Origin: a virus | Reading direction: 5' to 3' (one strand) | Virus record (IMG/VR): IMGVR_UViG_3300046692_000226 | Coordinates: 1-57,446 of that record | Length of the DNA stretch: 57,446 bases | Shown: one piece after another, positions 48,241 to 57,387 of the stretch | Numbering within the stretch: position 1 is the stretch's first letter | Layout of the letters: every line of letters begins with the position of its first letter | The notes under the pieces: model-generated | Told to the model about the DNA's origin: nothing | The model's input: the letters and a program-made list of their open reading frames with translations, nothing else | The model's database searches: none | Made by a program: the position numbers and the translations under genes

Positions 48241-49251
48241 ATGCCTGTTCTTCACAGCATCATCCACAAGATCGACAAGAAGCCCGACGGTAGCCCTGCC
48301 GTCTTGCACATCGGCAGCCATGAGCTGGCCGAAAGCGGCGCCCGTGACGACCTCATCAGCCAGCTCAACGAAAGCTACAACGCAAAGACCGGCAAGGCCT
48401 GGGGCTTCTTCCACGCCGAATCGGGTGCCAACCCCTTAAGTGGTTGGCTGGGTAAATACCTGGCCGGCACCAAAGACTTCTGGGAGTTCAGCAATGTCGC
48501 CGTCGAGCACTTAACCAAGCTGATGGAAGAATCGAACCTCAGCGTCGGCGGCAGCGTCCTGTTTTGCCACTACCAACAAGGCATGACCGAATACCTGACC
48601 ATTGCATTGGTGCAGGAAACCGAGGCGGTAATGCTCTCCGATGGTCTGACGTTGTTTCCGGCTCGACGCCTGGACCTGGACCGCCTCCATCTGGCTGCGC
48701 GGATCAATCTGAGGGAGTGGAAGAGCAACCCCAAGTCGCTGCAGTACATCTCGTTCATACGCGGGAAAGGACGAGGTAGCCGCGCAAGCCGGTACTTCCA
48801 AGACTTCATCGGCTGCCAAGAGGGTGTCGACGGCCCAGGTGAAACCCGCACCCTGCTCAAGGCGTTCAGCGACTTCGTTGAAAGCGAAGACCTCGGCGAG
48901 GAATCAGCCCGGGAGAAAACTAATACCTTGGTCAGCTACGCGATGGCACAAGCCAAGCTCGGCGAGCCGATTACCCTGGACGAATTGTCCGAAGCGCTAA
49001 ACGACGAACAGCCAAAGGCGTTTGCCGACTTCCTCCGCGACAAGGATTACGGCCTGTCGGCTTCACTGCCGCCGGACAAGAAGACCCTGAACAAATTCCG
49101 GCGTTTCACTGGTCGCTCCGATGGCCTGTCGATCAGCTTCGAACAGCACCTGCTGGGCTCGAAGGTCGAGTTCGACGAAGTCGGCGGAACGCTGACGCTG
49201 CGAGGACTGCCTACCCAGCTCACTGATCAACTCAAGCGCGCAGCCGCCTGA
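48241..49251 (+). CDS. yejK: Nucleoid-associated protein YejK/NdpA family
   Basis: 336 residues from ATG 48241 (CGAGGTAACCGC upstream). Starts [19 protein letters not shown]; contains [28 protein letters not shown] and [13 protein letters not shown], typical of the 37-kDa nucleoid-associated proteins. The host usually has its own copy; a phage version may compact or remodel DNA, or counter host silencing. Confidence 0.9.
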
Positions 49252-49271: not shown

Positions 49272-50090
49272 TCATTTTTTGTAACGATGGCTCATTACAC
49301 CGTCCTTAATTTCAAGTTGGCCTCGCCTCAATGTAATAGCTTGAGACGCAAATTGCTTAACAGGAACAATGGACGTGATGTCACTTAGGTCGCCAATTTC
49401 AAGTTCGAGCGCACCATCGGCGTTTAAAGCCCCTGAGGTACAACCAATACAAAATCTATACTCCCGCTGCCATGCATACTCAATATCTTTTCTAAAAAGG
49501 CCGACGATGCCGCTGTGATTACTCATATCTACATAATCAACTTGTCCATAGCCACCTTCAAAAAATGGAGAACTATATAAATACGGGTGCGCAAGGATCG
49601 CCGCACTCAATCTCTTTGAAAACTCACCATGATTATTGACCTTCAACACATGATCGCCAAATTCTGTGAAGCGATTACTTAACGTAACCTGACCTGCATG
49701 TTCACCTGGGATCAGGCCGTCAAGACCATCAGCTAAAGCAGCCATGCAGAAAATAAAAATATTTGATGGCTTAGGTAGATCCACATGGAACATAGCTTCC
49801 GACCCTAGCGAAACTTCTTTCCCATCGACCTCAACAAAAAATTCACCGACCTGCTTTCCATCTAATTGACTATGAACCGTTAAATAATTTTTTTCTAACA
49901 CATCTTTTCTTAGCGCTGTAGCCTCTTCACCTTTGAGTCCTGAAAAATAATTCACACTATTCATATACATTTTACCCTTCTGAAATTGTTTCAGACGGGA
50001 AAGCGAGCCAGCTCGGAAAAGCAACCAACACTGACAATTCGGACTTCGATCTGGAAATACATCCGATTGAATAAAACCAGAAAAAACCAT
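49272..50090 (-). CDS. AT-rich uncharacterised cargo protein
   Basis: 272 residues from ATG 50090 with a strong AAGGGGAATC site. FQKGKMYMNSVNYFSGLKGEE and a late DIEYAWQREYRFCIG are notable, and I recall the general 'KGxxYMNSxxYF' pattern from uncharacterised bacterial proteins. No signal peptide or membrane segment. Clearly more AT-rich than its neighbours and read against them, hence acquired cargo. An anti-phage or host-fitness role is a guess. Confidence 0.72.
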   Translation of the reverse strand: MVFSGFIQSDVFPDRSPNCQCWLLFRAGSLSRLKQFQKGKMYMNSVNYFSGLKGEEATALRKDVLEKNYLTVHSQLDGKQVGEFFVEVDGKEVSLGSEAMFHVDLPKPSNIFIFCMAALADGLDGLIPGEHAGQVTLSNRFTEFGDHVLKVNNHGEFSKRLSAAILAHPYLYSSPFFEGGYGQVDYVDMSNHSGIVGLFRKDIEYAWQREYRFCIGCTSGALNADGALELEIGDLSDITSIVPVKQFASQAITLRRGQLEIKDGVMSHRYKK

Positions 50091-50118
50091 GATTCCCCTT
50101 AAATTCTCACAGTTGTTT

Positions 50119-50171
50119 ATCCGGCCTCATGCCGGGCTAACACAAATACCCAATTAAACGAATCACGCCAG
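50119..50171. repeat. Intergenic direct repeat, copy A
   Basis: CCGGCCTCATGCCGG (small hairpin) followed by ACACAAATACCCAATTAAAC and GAATCACGCCAG. Nearly the same sequence, in the same order, lies at 51131-51187, and the last part (CACGCCAGCC-ACGAGG) recurs at about 50438-50454. Confidence 0.75.
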
Positions 50172-50196
50172 TTAGCTGGGCGGCTGGCTTCGTCGC

Positions 50197-50382
50197 CTAC
50201 CGCACCAAAGGCTCAGCAACTCGGTCTATCGCCTTCCTGTAGGTGGCAAGCTCAATGATCTGCCGTAAGCAGATTATGACCTCAAGCTTCTGCTTATCGT
50301 CGGGGATCCCTATTCGCTTGAGCATCATTTGAGCGTCTTCCTCGATTGCCGCGAGTGCATCGATATCACTTTGCAATCTCAT
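50197..50382 (-). CDS. Small hypothetical protein
   Basis: 61 residues from ATG 50382 with GGGAGGCCCGC upstream. One helical bundle-like sequence (MRLQSDIDALAAIEEDAQMM). First of several short minus-strand genes alternating with plus-strand ones. Unknown function. Confidence 0.65.
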   Translation of the reverse strand: MRLQSDIDALAAIEEDAQMMLKRIGIPDDKQKLEVIICLRQIIELATYRKAIDRVAEPLVR

Positions 50383-50492: not shown

Positions 50493-50831
50493 ATGAATGA
50501 ACACTTCGCCCGCGAAGAGGCGAAGCGCAAGGTTCGCGACTTCAAGATCGAAAAGGGTAAGCGGGTTGAGCTGTCGATGAGCCAGTGGCTCCAGGCCGTT
50601 GAAGATCGTGTCGTCAAGATCATGGACGGCAAGCGGGTCGCCCAACTCAGCAGCATGTTCGATGCCCCCCAGTACGCCGCCGATTACGCTGAGCGCATCC
50701 GCAAGCTGGGGCGGTGCCGCGATGTAATCATCAGGGCGAAGATCAAGTTGCCGCAGAACGACTTGAGACGGAAGTCAGCAACCAAGCTTTCGTGGTTGGA
50801 CTACGCGCCGGAATCGACGGCGGCCGCCTGA
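50493..50831 (+). CDS. Early hypothetical protein with a possible leader peptide
   Basis: 112 residues from ATG 50493 (MNEHFAREEAKRKVRDFKIE). Helical, basic. A five-codon reading frame (MPYSE, 50479-50496) with a good ribosome site ends in ATGA overlap with this start, so translation is either coupled through a leader peptide or the gene once began at 50479 and suffered a frameshift. Function unknown. Confidence 0.65.
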   Translation: MNEHFAREEAKRKVRDFKIEKGKRVELSMSQWLQAVEDRVVKIMDGKRVAQLSSMFDAPQYAADYAERIRKLGRCRDVIIRAKIKLPQNDLRRKSATKLSWLDYAPESTAAA

Positions 50832-50863: not shown

Positions 50864-51118
50864 TCAAGCCGAAAGATCAGGCCCAAGAGTCAAATCGATG
50901 TCTAGCCTCGCCAATGCTTTACCGCGGGCTAACGCCTCATTGAAGCTGTTGTACTTGGCATTTTCACGGATTGCTTCAACCTGCCTTTCTTCGATCTCAA
51001 CAGCGATTCTAAGTCCCGTTGGCACAGAATCACTGTCGCTATCCCATTCAAAATCAATCTTCGCTTTAACGCCTCGATGCTCATAGACAACTGGGTACGG
51101 CCTATCCACTAACACCAT
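50864..51118 (-). CDS. Small hypothetical protein
   Basis: 84 residues from ATG 51118 with AAGGAGATCGAA upstream. Acidic; VVYEHRGVKAKIDFEWDSDS then RIAVEIEERQVEAI. Antisense to neighbouring genes, with its own ribosome site. No domain recognised. Confidence 0.68.
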   Translation of the reverse strand: MVLVDRPYPVVYEHRGVKAKIDFEWDSDSDSVPTGLRIAVEIEERQVEAIRENAKYNSFNEALARGKALARLDIDLTLGPDLSA

Positions 51119-51130
51119 TTCGATCTCCTT

Positions 51131-51187
51131 GATCCGGCTCCATGCCGGCCCGAACACAAATAACCCAATTCAACGAATCACGCCAGC
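51131..51187. repeat. Intergenic direct repeat, copy B
   Basis: CCGGCTCCATGCCGG hairpin, then AACACAAATAACCCAATTCA and GAATCACGCCAG, matching copy A at 50119-50171 with few changes. It leads into the methyltransferase gene. Confidence 0.75.
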
Positions 51188-51202
51188 CGGCGAGGATCCC
51201 CT

Positions 51203-53008
51203 ATGTCCGCACAACAGAAGTTACCCCAGTTCATCCATGGACAGCCAAGCATGGGACTGCCGTTCGAAAAGGAGCTGGTGGTTGACCTGTTCGCCGGTGG
51301 CGGCGGCGCCAGCACCGGCATTGCCAGGGCATACCGGGAGCCGGATGTGGCGGTAAACCACAATCCGATTGCCTTGGCTGTGCACCGAGCAAACCACCCG
51401 CAGACAGAGCACTATGTCGCCGACGTGTATGAGGTGTGCCCCAGGAAAGCAACCGGTGGCCAGCCAGTGGCGATTATCTGGGCGTCACCTGACTGCCGTC
51501 ATCACAGCAAAGCCAAGGGCGGGGCGCCGCGTGACCGTGGAGTTCGCGGGCTGGCCTGGGTAGTGATTCGCTGGTGTTTCGTCACCAAGACGCGGCTGCT
51601 CTTCCTGGAGAACGTCGAAGAGTTCTGCGACTGGGGGCCGATCGATGACGAAGGCCAGCCGATCAAGGCCGAGCGCGGGCGCACCTTCAAGGCGTTCATT
51701 GCTGCGATCAGCAGCGGGCTTGCTGCCGATCACCCTGACATGGCGGAAATCATGGAGGCCATCGGGGAGTTCGTGCCGATGGAAGCACTGGTGCGCGGCC
51801 TTGGTTACAACGTCGAATGGCGCGAGCGTATTGCAGCCAACGCCGGCACTCCTACAATCCGCAAGCGCCTGTACCTGGTAGCGCGAAGTGACGGCAAAGC
51901 GATCGTTTGGCCAGAACCCAAGCGCCACAAGAAGCCGACGGCGAAACAGCAACCTTGGCGCACTGCTGCGGAGTGCATCGACTGGAGCAACCTTGGCCGC
52001 ACGATCTTCCGTGAAAGGCCGATGGCAGTGAACACGATGCGCCGCGTAGCCAAAGGCTGCTGGCGTCACGTGCTGACTAGCGCGAAGCCTTTCATTGTCC
52101 CAATGCGCGGAACATCGGAATCACACACCAGCACTCACGGTGTTGACGAAGCGCTGACGACGATCAGCGCCGGCGGCACACATCACGCTCTGGTCCATCC
52201 AGTGGCGGCGCCATTCCTCACCGAGTGCGCCAACGGCTCAGCGCAGCGCAACTTCAGCGCGGTCGAACCGTTGCGCACGCAAGTCGCCCAGGTCAAGGGC
52301 GGGCACTTCGCGCTGGCCGCGGCGAACATGGTCACTCTGCGAAAAGGTTCGGTTGGCGCTGATGTCGACAACCCCCTCGGCGTGGTCGCTACCAGCACCG
52401 GGCACCATGCTGTATCGGCTGCATTCTTCGAGCAGGCAAATGGTGGCTTCTATAAAGGCGACGGCCGATCGGCTTACGACCCGATTTCGACCATCTGCCA
52501 ATCCGGCGCCAATCAGCGGCTGGTGAACGCTTACCTGGTGAAGTACTACGGCAATGAGAAGGATGGAATATCACTGGCCGAGCCGATGCACACCCTGCCG
52601 ACGAAGGATCGGGTTGCGCTGGTTGAAGTCGTGCAGGTGCCGGACACACTGACGCCGGAACAGATGGAAGGCGCCCGACGTTGTGCCGCTTTCATGCATG
52701 AATACCTGCCGGAGCATTTCAAAGACCCGGCCGAAATGGTGATGGTTGGCGGCTATGTGTTGGTGGACATCACCCTACGCATGCTGCAACCGCCTGAGCT
52801 GAAGGCCGCTCAGGGCTTCGACAAGGACTACATCATCGATCGCGGGCTATTCGTCGATCCGGTCACCGGCGCCGAAGAATGGCGCGACATCAATAAAACA
52901 GATCAAGTCCGGCTGATAGGCAACAGCGTCTGTCCGGACGAAGCCGAGGCCCTGGTCGCGGCTAACGCCGCCGACATCATCGAGCTTTACCAGCGCCTTG
53001 CAGCCTGA
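51203..53008 (+). CDS. DNA (cytosine-5) methyltransferase
   Basis: 601 residues, GGCGAGGATCCCCT upstream of ATG 51203. Motif I DLFAGGGGASTG (28-39) binds S-adenosylmethionine; motif IV is SPDCRHH with catalytic Cys98 in place of the usual PPC; motif VI ENVEEF (136-141). The long C-terminal half holds a variable target-recognition region and a late GNSVC motif X-like stretch. No restriction partner is nearby, so it probably shields phage DNA from host restriction. Confidence 0.93.
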   Translation: MSAQQKLPQFIHGQPSMGLPFEKELVVDLFAGGGGASTGIARAYREPDVAVNHNPIALAVHRANHPQTEHYVADVYEVCPRKATGGQPVAIIWASPDCRHHSKAKGGAPRDRGVRGLAWVVIRWCFVTKTRLLFLENVEEFCDWGPIDDEGQPIKAERGRTFKAFIAAISSGLAADHPDMAEIMEAIGEFVPMEALVRGLGYNVEWRERIAANAGTPTIRKRLYLVARSDGKAIVWPEPKRHKKPTAKQQPWRTAAECIDWSNLGRTIFRERPMAVNTMRRVAKGCWRHVLTSAKPFIVPMRGTSESHTSTHGVDEALTTISAGGTHHALVHPVAAPFLTECANGSAQRNFSAVEPLRTQVAQVKGGHFALAAANMVTLRKGSVGADVDNPLGVVATSTGHHAVSAAFFEQANGGFYKGDGRSAYDPISTICQSGANQRLVNAYLVKYYGNEKDGISLAEPMHTLPTKDRVALVEVVQVPDTLTPEQMEGARRCAAFMHEYLPEHFKDPAEMVMVGGYVLVDITLRMLQPPELKAAQGFDKDYIIDRGLFVDPVTGAEEWRDINKTDQVRLIGNSVCPDEAEALVAANAADIIELYQRLAA

Positions 53009-53242
53009 TCAGACAGCCCAGAAAACAAAAGCGCTTGTGATGACCGGAATCCGCTGGGGATGAGCACGCCGCTGGCGCTCAAACCACCACCTCGTTTGCG
53101 TAACGTCGAATCGACGGTTGTACTGAACTGAAAGCAGACTCCCCGAAACGCCGAAGTGGCCACAATCCGGGCAACTAAGTTCTTTTCCATCAAGATCTGA
53201 CTCAACTTTAAAAGCATCGACCCCGCAGACCAAGCACTCCAT
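53009..53242 (-). CDS. Small zinc-ribbon protein, paralogue 1
   Basis: 77 residues from ATG 53242 (AAGGAGAGCGGT upstream). MECLVCG and, 20 residues on, CPDCGHFGVSG form a CxxC-CxxC zinc ribbon, followed by RRFDVTQTRWWFERQR. It ends one base after the methyltransferase stop on the other strand. The gene at 53770-54003 is a relative. Role unknown. Confidence 0.75.
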   Translation of the reverse strand: MECLVCGVDAFKVESDLDGKELSCPDCGHFGVSGSLLSVQYNRRFDVTQTRWWFERQRRAHPQRIPVITSAFVFWAV

Positions 53243-53330
53243 ACCGCTCTCCTTAATTTTGTTAATTGCTGAACTGTAGCTGACCCTCACAACCCTCCAC
53301 CGCCCGGGCATGACCCGGCTAGGACGCCCC

Positions 53331-53762
53331 ATGCCCACAGAAAACAAACTCGCTCTGAAGCGCCAGCGCGTCGAGCACGTCAACCAGGCGATCCGGATCA
53401 TCGCCGACCACGGCCGCCGGTTCTTTTACAGCCAGAGCGTGAATCGCTACGCCAGCATGGAAGTCGATCACCGCGGCAAGGTCTGGTTCATCGACGACTA
53501 CAGCGGGAAGCGCGTCTTCACGCATGAAACGGTATGGGGTGGCCGGTGGCGCGGGTTCACACATGGCGGCACGCTGCGCGATCTGGTCAAAGAATTCCGG
53601 GACTACATCTGCACCGGTGAACAGCTGCACCCTGGTTGTCTCGGACCTGAACGGTTCGATGACAGCAATATCTGGGGTTACGACGAACCGGGCATGAAGG
53701 CAGTGCGCGAGCAAGCCGGCGCCCTTTCTGTGTTCCGCCAGACTGCCGCACAAGCAGCATGA
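53331..53762 (+). CDS. Early hypothetical protein
   Basis: 143 residues from ATG 53331 (AGGACGCC upstream). VWFIDDYSGKRVFTHET and GGRWRGFTHGGTLRDLVKEF are characteristic of a family common in Pseudomonas phages near the methyltransferase. Soluble; no catalytic motif recognised. Confidence 0.75.
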   Translation: MPTENKLALKRQRVEHVNQAIRIIADHGRRFFYSQSVNRYASMEVDHRGKVWFIDDYSGKRVFTHETVWGGRWRGFTHGGTLRDLVKEFRDYICTGEQLHPGCLGPERFDDSNIWGYDEPGMKAVREQAGALSVFRQTAAQAA

Positions 53763-53769
53763 AGCGAAT

Positions 53770-54003
53770 CTAAACGTCGATTAAGCGAGCTGCCTGGTGA
53801 GAATCGATTGTAGGGAGAACGGTACCTTGATGCTCTGAGATCCACCTCCGAACCAGCTCTACATCGAAACGCCAGTTGTAGGCTTTCATCAGCACTAGCG
53901 CCGCACCGGTGACTCTATATTGTCCACACTTTGGACAGACTCTTTCCAAATAGTCATCAGCATCAATTGCCACTGCAGGCTCACCACAAATCATGCAAGT
54001 CAT
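53770..54003 (-). CDS. Small zinc-ribbon protein, paralogue 2
   Basis: 77 residues from ATG 54003 (AAAAAAGGGATAGTTC upstream). MTCMICG and CPKCGQYRVTG give the same zinc ribbon as 53009-53242, followed by a related NWRFDVELVRRWISEHQ tail. Duplicated, both on the minus strand, both after a plus-strand gene. Role unknown. Confidence 0.75.
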   Translation of the reverse strand: MTCMICGEPAVAIDADDYLERVCPKCGQYRVTGAALVLMKAYNWRFDVELVRRWISEHQGTVLPTIDSHQAARLIDV

Positions 54004-57305: not shown

Positions 57306-57357
57306 TTATATGGTCGGGACGGAGTGATTCGAACACTCGACCCCTAGCACCCCATGC
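57306..57357. repeat. attR core
   Basis: The 52-bp repeat partner of attL; here it is part of the complete tRNA-Pro gene. Confidence 0.92.
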
Positions 57358-57387
57358 TAGTGCGCTACCGGACTGCGCTACGCCCCG
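57311..57387 (-). tRNA. tRNA-Pro (anticodon GGG)
   Basis: Read on the minus strand it gives a full cloverleaf: acceptor CGGGGCG / CGTCCCG, D-arm with AGTCCGGTAG, anticodon stem CTAGC / GCTAG around ATGGGGT (anticodon GGG for CCC codons), T-arm GAGTG-TTCGAAT-CACTC and an encoded CCA. Length is 77 nt. The phage core supplies the 3' half without breaking the gene. Confidence 0.96.

Follow-up and report, generated by a model that had tools for sequence, protein, structure and literature searches.

An opposite-strand cargo gene behind a conserved leader in a temperate phage, and its distant relationship to DUF2971/PDC-S31

Closest described systems and the host phage

Tab of Pseudomonas phage JBD26 is a well-studied moron that lies on the minus strand, carries its own promoter and protects the lysogen from other phages (PMC10884400). 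The gene analyzed in this study, a 272-aa ORF, resembles Tab as a putative minus-strand moron of a Pseudomonas prophage; Tab differs in its size of 83 aa, in its place between terminase genes and in the anti-Tab gene that accompanies it (PMC10884400). Proteins with DUF2971 are catalogued by PADLOC as PDC-S31, which is a phage defence candidate and not a proven system. In the literature, we found DUF2971 mentioned only in passing and PDC-S31 not at all. PHROG 26561, which all the relatives tested match, and PHROG 13198 are families of unknown function, and the entry for PHROG 26561 is silent on the integron, plasmid and restriction-modification (RM) contexts of the family that are described below.

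The window, that is, the whole stretch of 57,446 nucleotides (IMG/VR virus record IMGVR_UViG_3300046692_000226), is a temperate phage or prophage, judging from the tyrosine integrase gene that adjoins tRNA-Pro at the right end of the record. Among named phages, the longest matches to the record are Pseudomonas phages. The tRNA-Pro itself (57311–57387, minus strand) lies just past the integrase gene and is the probable attachment site at the right end of the prophage.

The ORF occupies positions 49272–50090 on the minus strand, begins with ATG and was confirmed as real. Its GC content is 41.4% (GC3 34%) vs. 57.5% for the whole window, and the GC minimum of the record, measured over 819 bp at a time, falls on the ORF, which bears out the first-pass annotation of an AT-rich, 272-residue ORF on the opposite strand. 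The ribosome site noted at that stage was also found, as a plausible Shine-Dalgarno sequence, AAGGGG (50095–50100, minus strand), read 4 nt 5′ of the ATG. Differences between the ORF and its 67–68% identical relatives are dominated by third codon positions (67/42/149 and 76/36/158 at codon positions 1/2/3), and dN/dS between its two close relatives, compared with each other, is 0.048. This bias and this ratio indicate a protein under purifying selection for function, more than a chance ORF.

The surroundings of the ORF are an early region with methyltransferase and recombination genes. On its left, the gene for an NA37 nucleoid-associated protein (48241–49251, plus strand; Pfam PF04245) is convergent with it, and on its right stands a conserved phage gene of 112 aa (50493–50831, plus strand; PHROG 20424), which served as the anchor of the slot comparison. 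A large cytosine methyltransferase gene (51203–53008, plus strand) follows, again in the orientation opposite to the ORF. The spacing between the NA37 gene and the 112-aa gene varies from 165 to 3700 bp over 24 loci, being 396 bp in L028 vs. 1245 bp in the window, and the ORF is missing from related phages at the corresponding place. An alternative occupant of the slot is a 61-aa ORF (50197–50382 in the window, minus strand), which is present in some sister phages (e.g., L042 and L038).

Protein family and its distant link to DUF2971

The protein had been regarded as an orphan, wrongly, as it matches the profile of PHROG 26561 with E = 5.6e-17 (residues 33–254 of 272 against 24–247 of 249) and belongs to a family of about 50 non-redundant members. 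This match and the distant DUF2971 link considered below came from the HMM search that had been suggested as a check. Pfam, PADLOC and NCBIfam gave no match to the window protein, tblastn against named phage records likewise gave none, and a single-sequence protein scan of IMG/VR found nothing. The six-sequence alignment of the family was too diverse for collection scans, and the distant relatives were obtained solely through a degenerate DNA pattern for G-x-x-Y-M-N-x-x-x-[YFW]-F, which retrieved about 40 more viral contigs that were confirmed by profile search. In 50 non-redundant members, the residues G39, Y42, M43, N44, F49, D63, E66, C115, G145, F157, Y186, K201, Q208, E210 and R212 are near-invariant. 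The pattern KGKMYMNSVNYF, previously said to recall uncharacterised proteins scattered in defence-rich regions, is indeed the signature of an uncharacterised family, in which its G, Y, M, N and F hardly vary, and the link to defence is an indirect one, through the distant DUF2971/PDC-S31 tie and the RM neighbours of a few distant relatives.

Two related phages (L156 and L082/L157) carry homologues with 67–69% identity in an early region that corresponds to that of the window, and the three Pseudomonas-type phages with the gene in this region form a single clade of the tree. In Shewanella and Rheinheimera, relatives with 39–42% identity take the form of integron cassettes that terminate in attC-like sites (L002, L008 and L009), one of which adjoins an apparent integron integrase gene; unlike them, the window copy has no attC and is phage cargo instead. 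Plasmid relatives (23–42% identity) were found in Shewanella, Aquicella, Photobacterium, Acinetobacter and Methylobacterium, and one relative lies on an inovirus-like contig. Of 49 family genes, 47 exceed their flanks in AT content, with a median difference of 11 points, and this AT-richness together with the scattered contexts points to a mobile accessory gene.

The family profile was scanned blind against 398 Pseudomonadota genomes. The weak hits included one protein (L262) that matches Pfam DUF2971 at 26.2 bits, above the cut-off, and another (L260) that has matches at either end and the look of an intermediate between the two families. An hhalign comparison of the family with DUF2971 scored 28.5, vs. 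25.7 for the best of 116 shuffles. Taken together, these two hits of the blind scan and this score suggest, with independent support that is moderate but not overwhelming, that the window family is distantly related to DUF2971 and belongs to a DUF2971-like superfamily. The window protein itself gave no hit to Pfam DUF2971 (PF11185; gathering cut-off 22 bits) at E ≤ 1 and none to the PADLOC PDC-S31 models PDLC04990–04994 at E ≤ 10; the best family members reach DUF2971 at E = 0.05 to 0.6, and one member matches PDC-S31 at E = 0.0036. The order of motifs is common to both families, with a basic residue in strand 1, G/N-x-L-Y/W-x-N/S..F..D..E and C-[LM]-S/x, continuing with V-x-Y and K..[WY]..[EQ]-x-E-[YF]-R, and the two are also alike in size, phage region, strand and AT-richness. 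In contrast, the MW-x-H-Y-A motif occurs in DUF2971 only, and the window family has a strict Y-M-N and Q-x-E-Y-R in its place.

In genomes, DUF2971/PDC-S31 was found at 21 places in 143. Within 1.5 Mb of sister-phage sequence surrounding the NA37 gene and the gene for the 112-aa protein, a DUF2971 gene is present in the early region of seven distinct records (L065, L029, L101, L070, L025, L108 and L053), six of them called PDC-S31. All seven genes are on the minus strand, with 42–47% GC vs. 54–59% in the flanks, and intermediate types are also present in sister phages (L120, L034 and L118). Therefore, members of the superfamily are recurrent opposite-strand cargo of the phage group to which the window belongs.

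Two confident structure models (pLDDT 84.9 and 88.8; pTM 0.80 and 0.84) predict a compact alpha/beta fold, in which the conserved polar set Y42, N44, D63, E66, C115, Y186, K201, Q208, E210 and R212 looks like an active site. The structure search that had been suggested as a further check came back empty: no fold in the PDB (both models) or BFVD (first model) matched below E 0.1, so that the predicted fold appears unlike any solved structure at this threshold and function could not be read from it. A sequence search of the PDB found no relative. As some distant relatives are linked to type II and IIG RM genes, action on nucleic acids is our first guess at the chemistry, made with low confidence. 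An ADP-ribosyltransferase of the DarT type had been considered because of the QxE motif and the basic residue in strand 1, and is not supported: the hhalign score of 14.7, from a comparison set that included a few wrong ORFs, was close to those of shuffled profiles, and Foldseek gave no hit. BamHI and other weak Pfam hits were treated as noise.

The leader upstream of the cargo genes

A leader with a 69-nt consensus, GgTGGCanttTnnnTTGnnnTGGGGTATTacgGgtGaCCGGCATGGaGCCGGATCAAGGAG, lies directly 5′ of the start codon of many minus-strand cargo genes. The copy upstream of the ORF (50116–50173, minus strand; nhmmer E = 1.4e-7) comprises a promoter-like part and a hairpin, CCGGC-ATGAG-GCCGG (50121–50135, minus strand), and both close homologues of the ORF are also preceded by the leader. 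A second copy in the window (51125–51193, minus strand; E = 2.4e-14) precedes a small ORF (50864–51157, minus strand) whose true start is probably internal, near 51118. Of 137 sister-phage records, 102 contain the leader, and its profile detected 152 copies in them. The minus strand has 147 of these, and among the five on the plus strand are hits in loci that had been stored the other way round; a reversed-sequence control gave no hits. The proteins encoded behind the leader form 80 clusters, and of 130 genes in this position, 126 have a higher AT content than the record in which they lie. Named carriers are the Pseudomonas phages PseuP_222, phiAH14a and UFJF_PfDIW6, and the leader was absent from the other phage groups checked. 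No Rfam family matches it, and we found no description of it in the literature.

Stem pairs of the hairpin are kept in 604 of 675 cells vs. at most 591 in shuffles, a difference that weakly supports the leader hairpin. No promoter was called in the leader by a sigma-70 scan. Its TGGC..TTG spacing is reminiscent of a sigma-54 promoter, but TTGC is lacking, and such a promoter is not claimed here. From its position and content, we infer that the leader is a promoter-and-ribosome-site cassette.

With regard to the features by which morons are recognised, the gene is absent from related phages and its base composition is atypical; for a promoter of its own, it has the conserved leader upstream, but no standard sigma-70 match at its start, and a search for a terminator between 49150 and 50500 found none. 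The view that the ORF is acquired cargo with its own control is supported by the AT-richness of the family, the variable slot and a leader that stands before about 80 kinds of cargo, and we regard the cargo, superfamily and leader claims as well supported. We further propose, tentatively, that in a large group of temperate Pseudomonas phages the leader could serve as an unrecognised plug-in control cassette, through which any AT-rich gene inserted behind it on the opposite strand would be expressed from the silent prophage. As such, it could be the genomic address of some 80 mostly uncharacterised anti-phage gene families, the ORF among them. If the model described below is true, the leader would matter more than the protein family, as a searchable tag with which prophage cargo in Pseudomonas genomes could be listed directly, in place of the reliance on nearness to known defence genes.

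Probable function and alternative explanations

Considering the above results, we propose a model in which the ORF is a plug-in moron that is expressed from the prophage and probably encodes an enzyme giving anti-phage protection, a reading that we hold with middling confidence. The moron would have landed next to the NA37 gene, in an orientation opposed to that of the early operon. Its modular leader, with a promoter-like stretch, a hairpin and then a ribosome site, is common to many unrelated cargo genes of the phage group and would make expression of the gene from the resident prophage independent of the lytic operon. The product would be a stand-alone enzyme that shields the lysogen from other phages or mobile DNA. 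If true, this model would give a first molecular handle on DUF2971/PDC-S31, which is catalogued in defence lists and for which we found no tested function, as well as a conserved family in which the residues to mutate are clearly defined.

An anti-phage role seems the most likely one from the analogy with Tab, the superfamily and the company of the distant relatives. One of these relatives has an MmeI-type restriction enzyme gene upstream, with an overlap of 1 nt (L281, 3816–7276); another lies directly downstream of an Eco57I-type enzyme gene (L282, 2440–7310), a third behind methyltransferase and BsuBI/PstI endonuclease genes (L158, 5085–8762) and a fourth near a type I RM system with SIR2 (L160). 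The first-pass annotation had put the gene forward as a defence or anti-defence candidate. This stands in so far as the distant DUF2971/PDC-S31 tie and these few RM neighbours point that way, but PADLOC and Pfam make no direct call. In their neighbourhoods, a few distant relatives stand beside RM genes, and other family members lie within head or baseplate operons.

These operons are the main argument for a different role, in which the protein would act in the lytic cycle to block a host restriction or abortive system and would hence be kept in early and late operons. In other phages, the gene stands in line within late operons, between head-morphogenesis and DUF2213 genes (L202, L204, L210, L216 and others) or between Mu-like baseplate genes (L161, L196, L227 and others). 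The gaps are too tight for a promoter of its own, which makes late lytic and not lysogenic expression likely for these copies, and the early-region position of the window gene beside methyltransferase and recombination genes would also suit counter-defence. However, the gene of the window's phage group is on the opposite strand with a separate leader, and an RM inhibitor would make little sense on conjugative plasmids, in integron cassettes or inside RM operons, where relatives occur; we consider counter-defence rather unlikely. The gene could also be a selfish one, for instance a free-standing homing endonuclease that moves from phage to phage, in keeping with copies that sit in intergenic slots among conserved structural genes. 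Erwinia phage vB_EhrS_49 has nothing in the head slot (27 bp between genes), whereas an HNH endonuclease gene lies there in Klebsiella phage 2b and other ORFs in further phages; the sharing of this slot with an HNH gene is the chief argument for a selfish element. Nevertheless, no HNH, GIY-YIG, LAGLIDADG or other nuclease family was recognised by Pfam in 36 members, relatives reside in integron cassettes and RM operons, and the tree has slot-bound clades, with the baseplate slot in one and the window slot in another, all of which makes a selfish gene improbable.

Morons often confer lysogenic conversion, and the product might instead be a toxin or a protein of host physiology with no anti-phage action. 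One distant relative adjoins a YhaV/PrlF toxin–antitoxin pair and another is near AbiJ-like genes, in keeping with such a role, but there is no conserved partner gene to serve as antitoxin and the superfamily is listed as a defence candidate, so we judge this explanation improbable. The anti-phage moron is our preferred reading.

Two observations are added on the wider surroundings of the family and of the window. One relative (L199, 8986–11349) adjoins genes for a CHAT-domain protein and a tyrosine recombinase. In the window, two small, related-looking, zinc-ribbon-like ORFs (CxxC...CPxCG) at 53009–53401 and 53770–54003 are both on the minus strand, opposite to the operon, and are candidates for further cargo.
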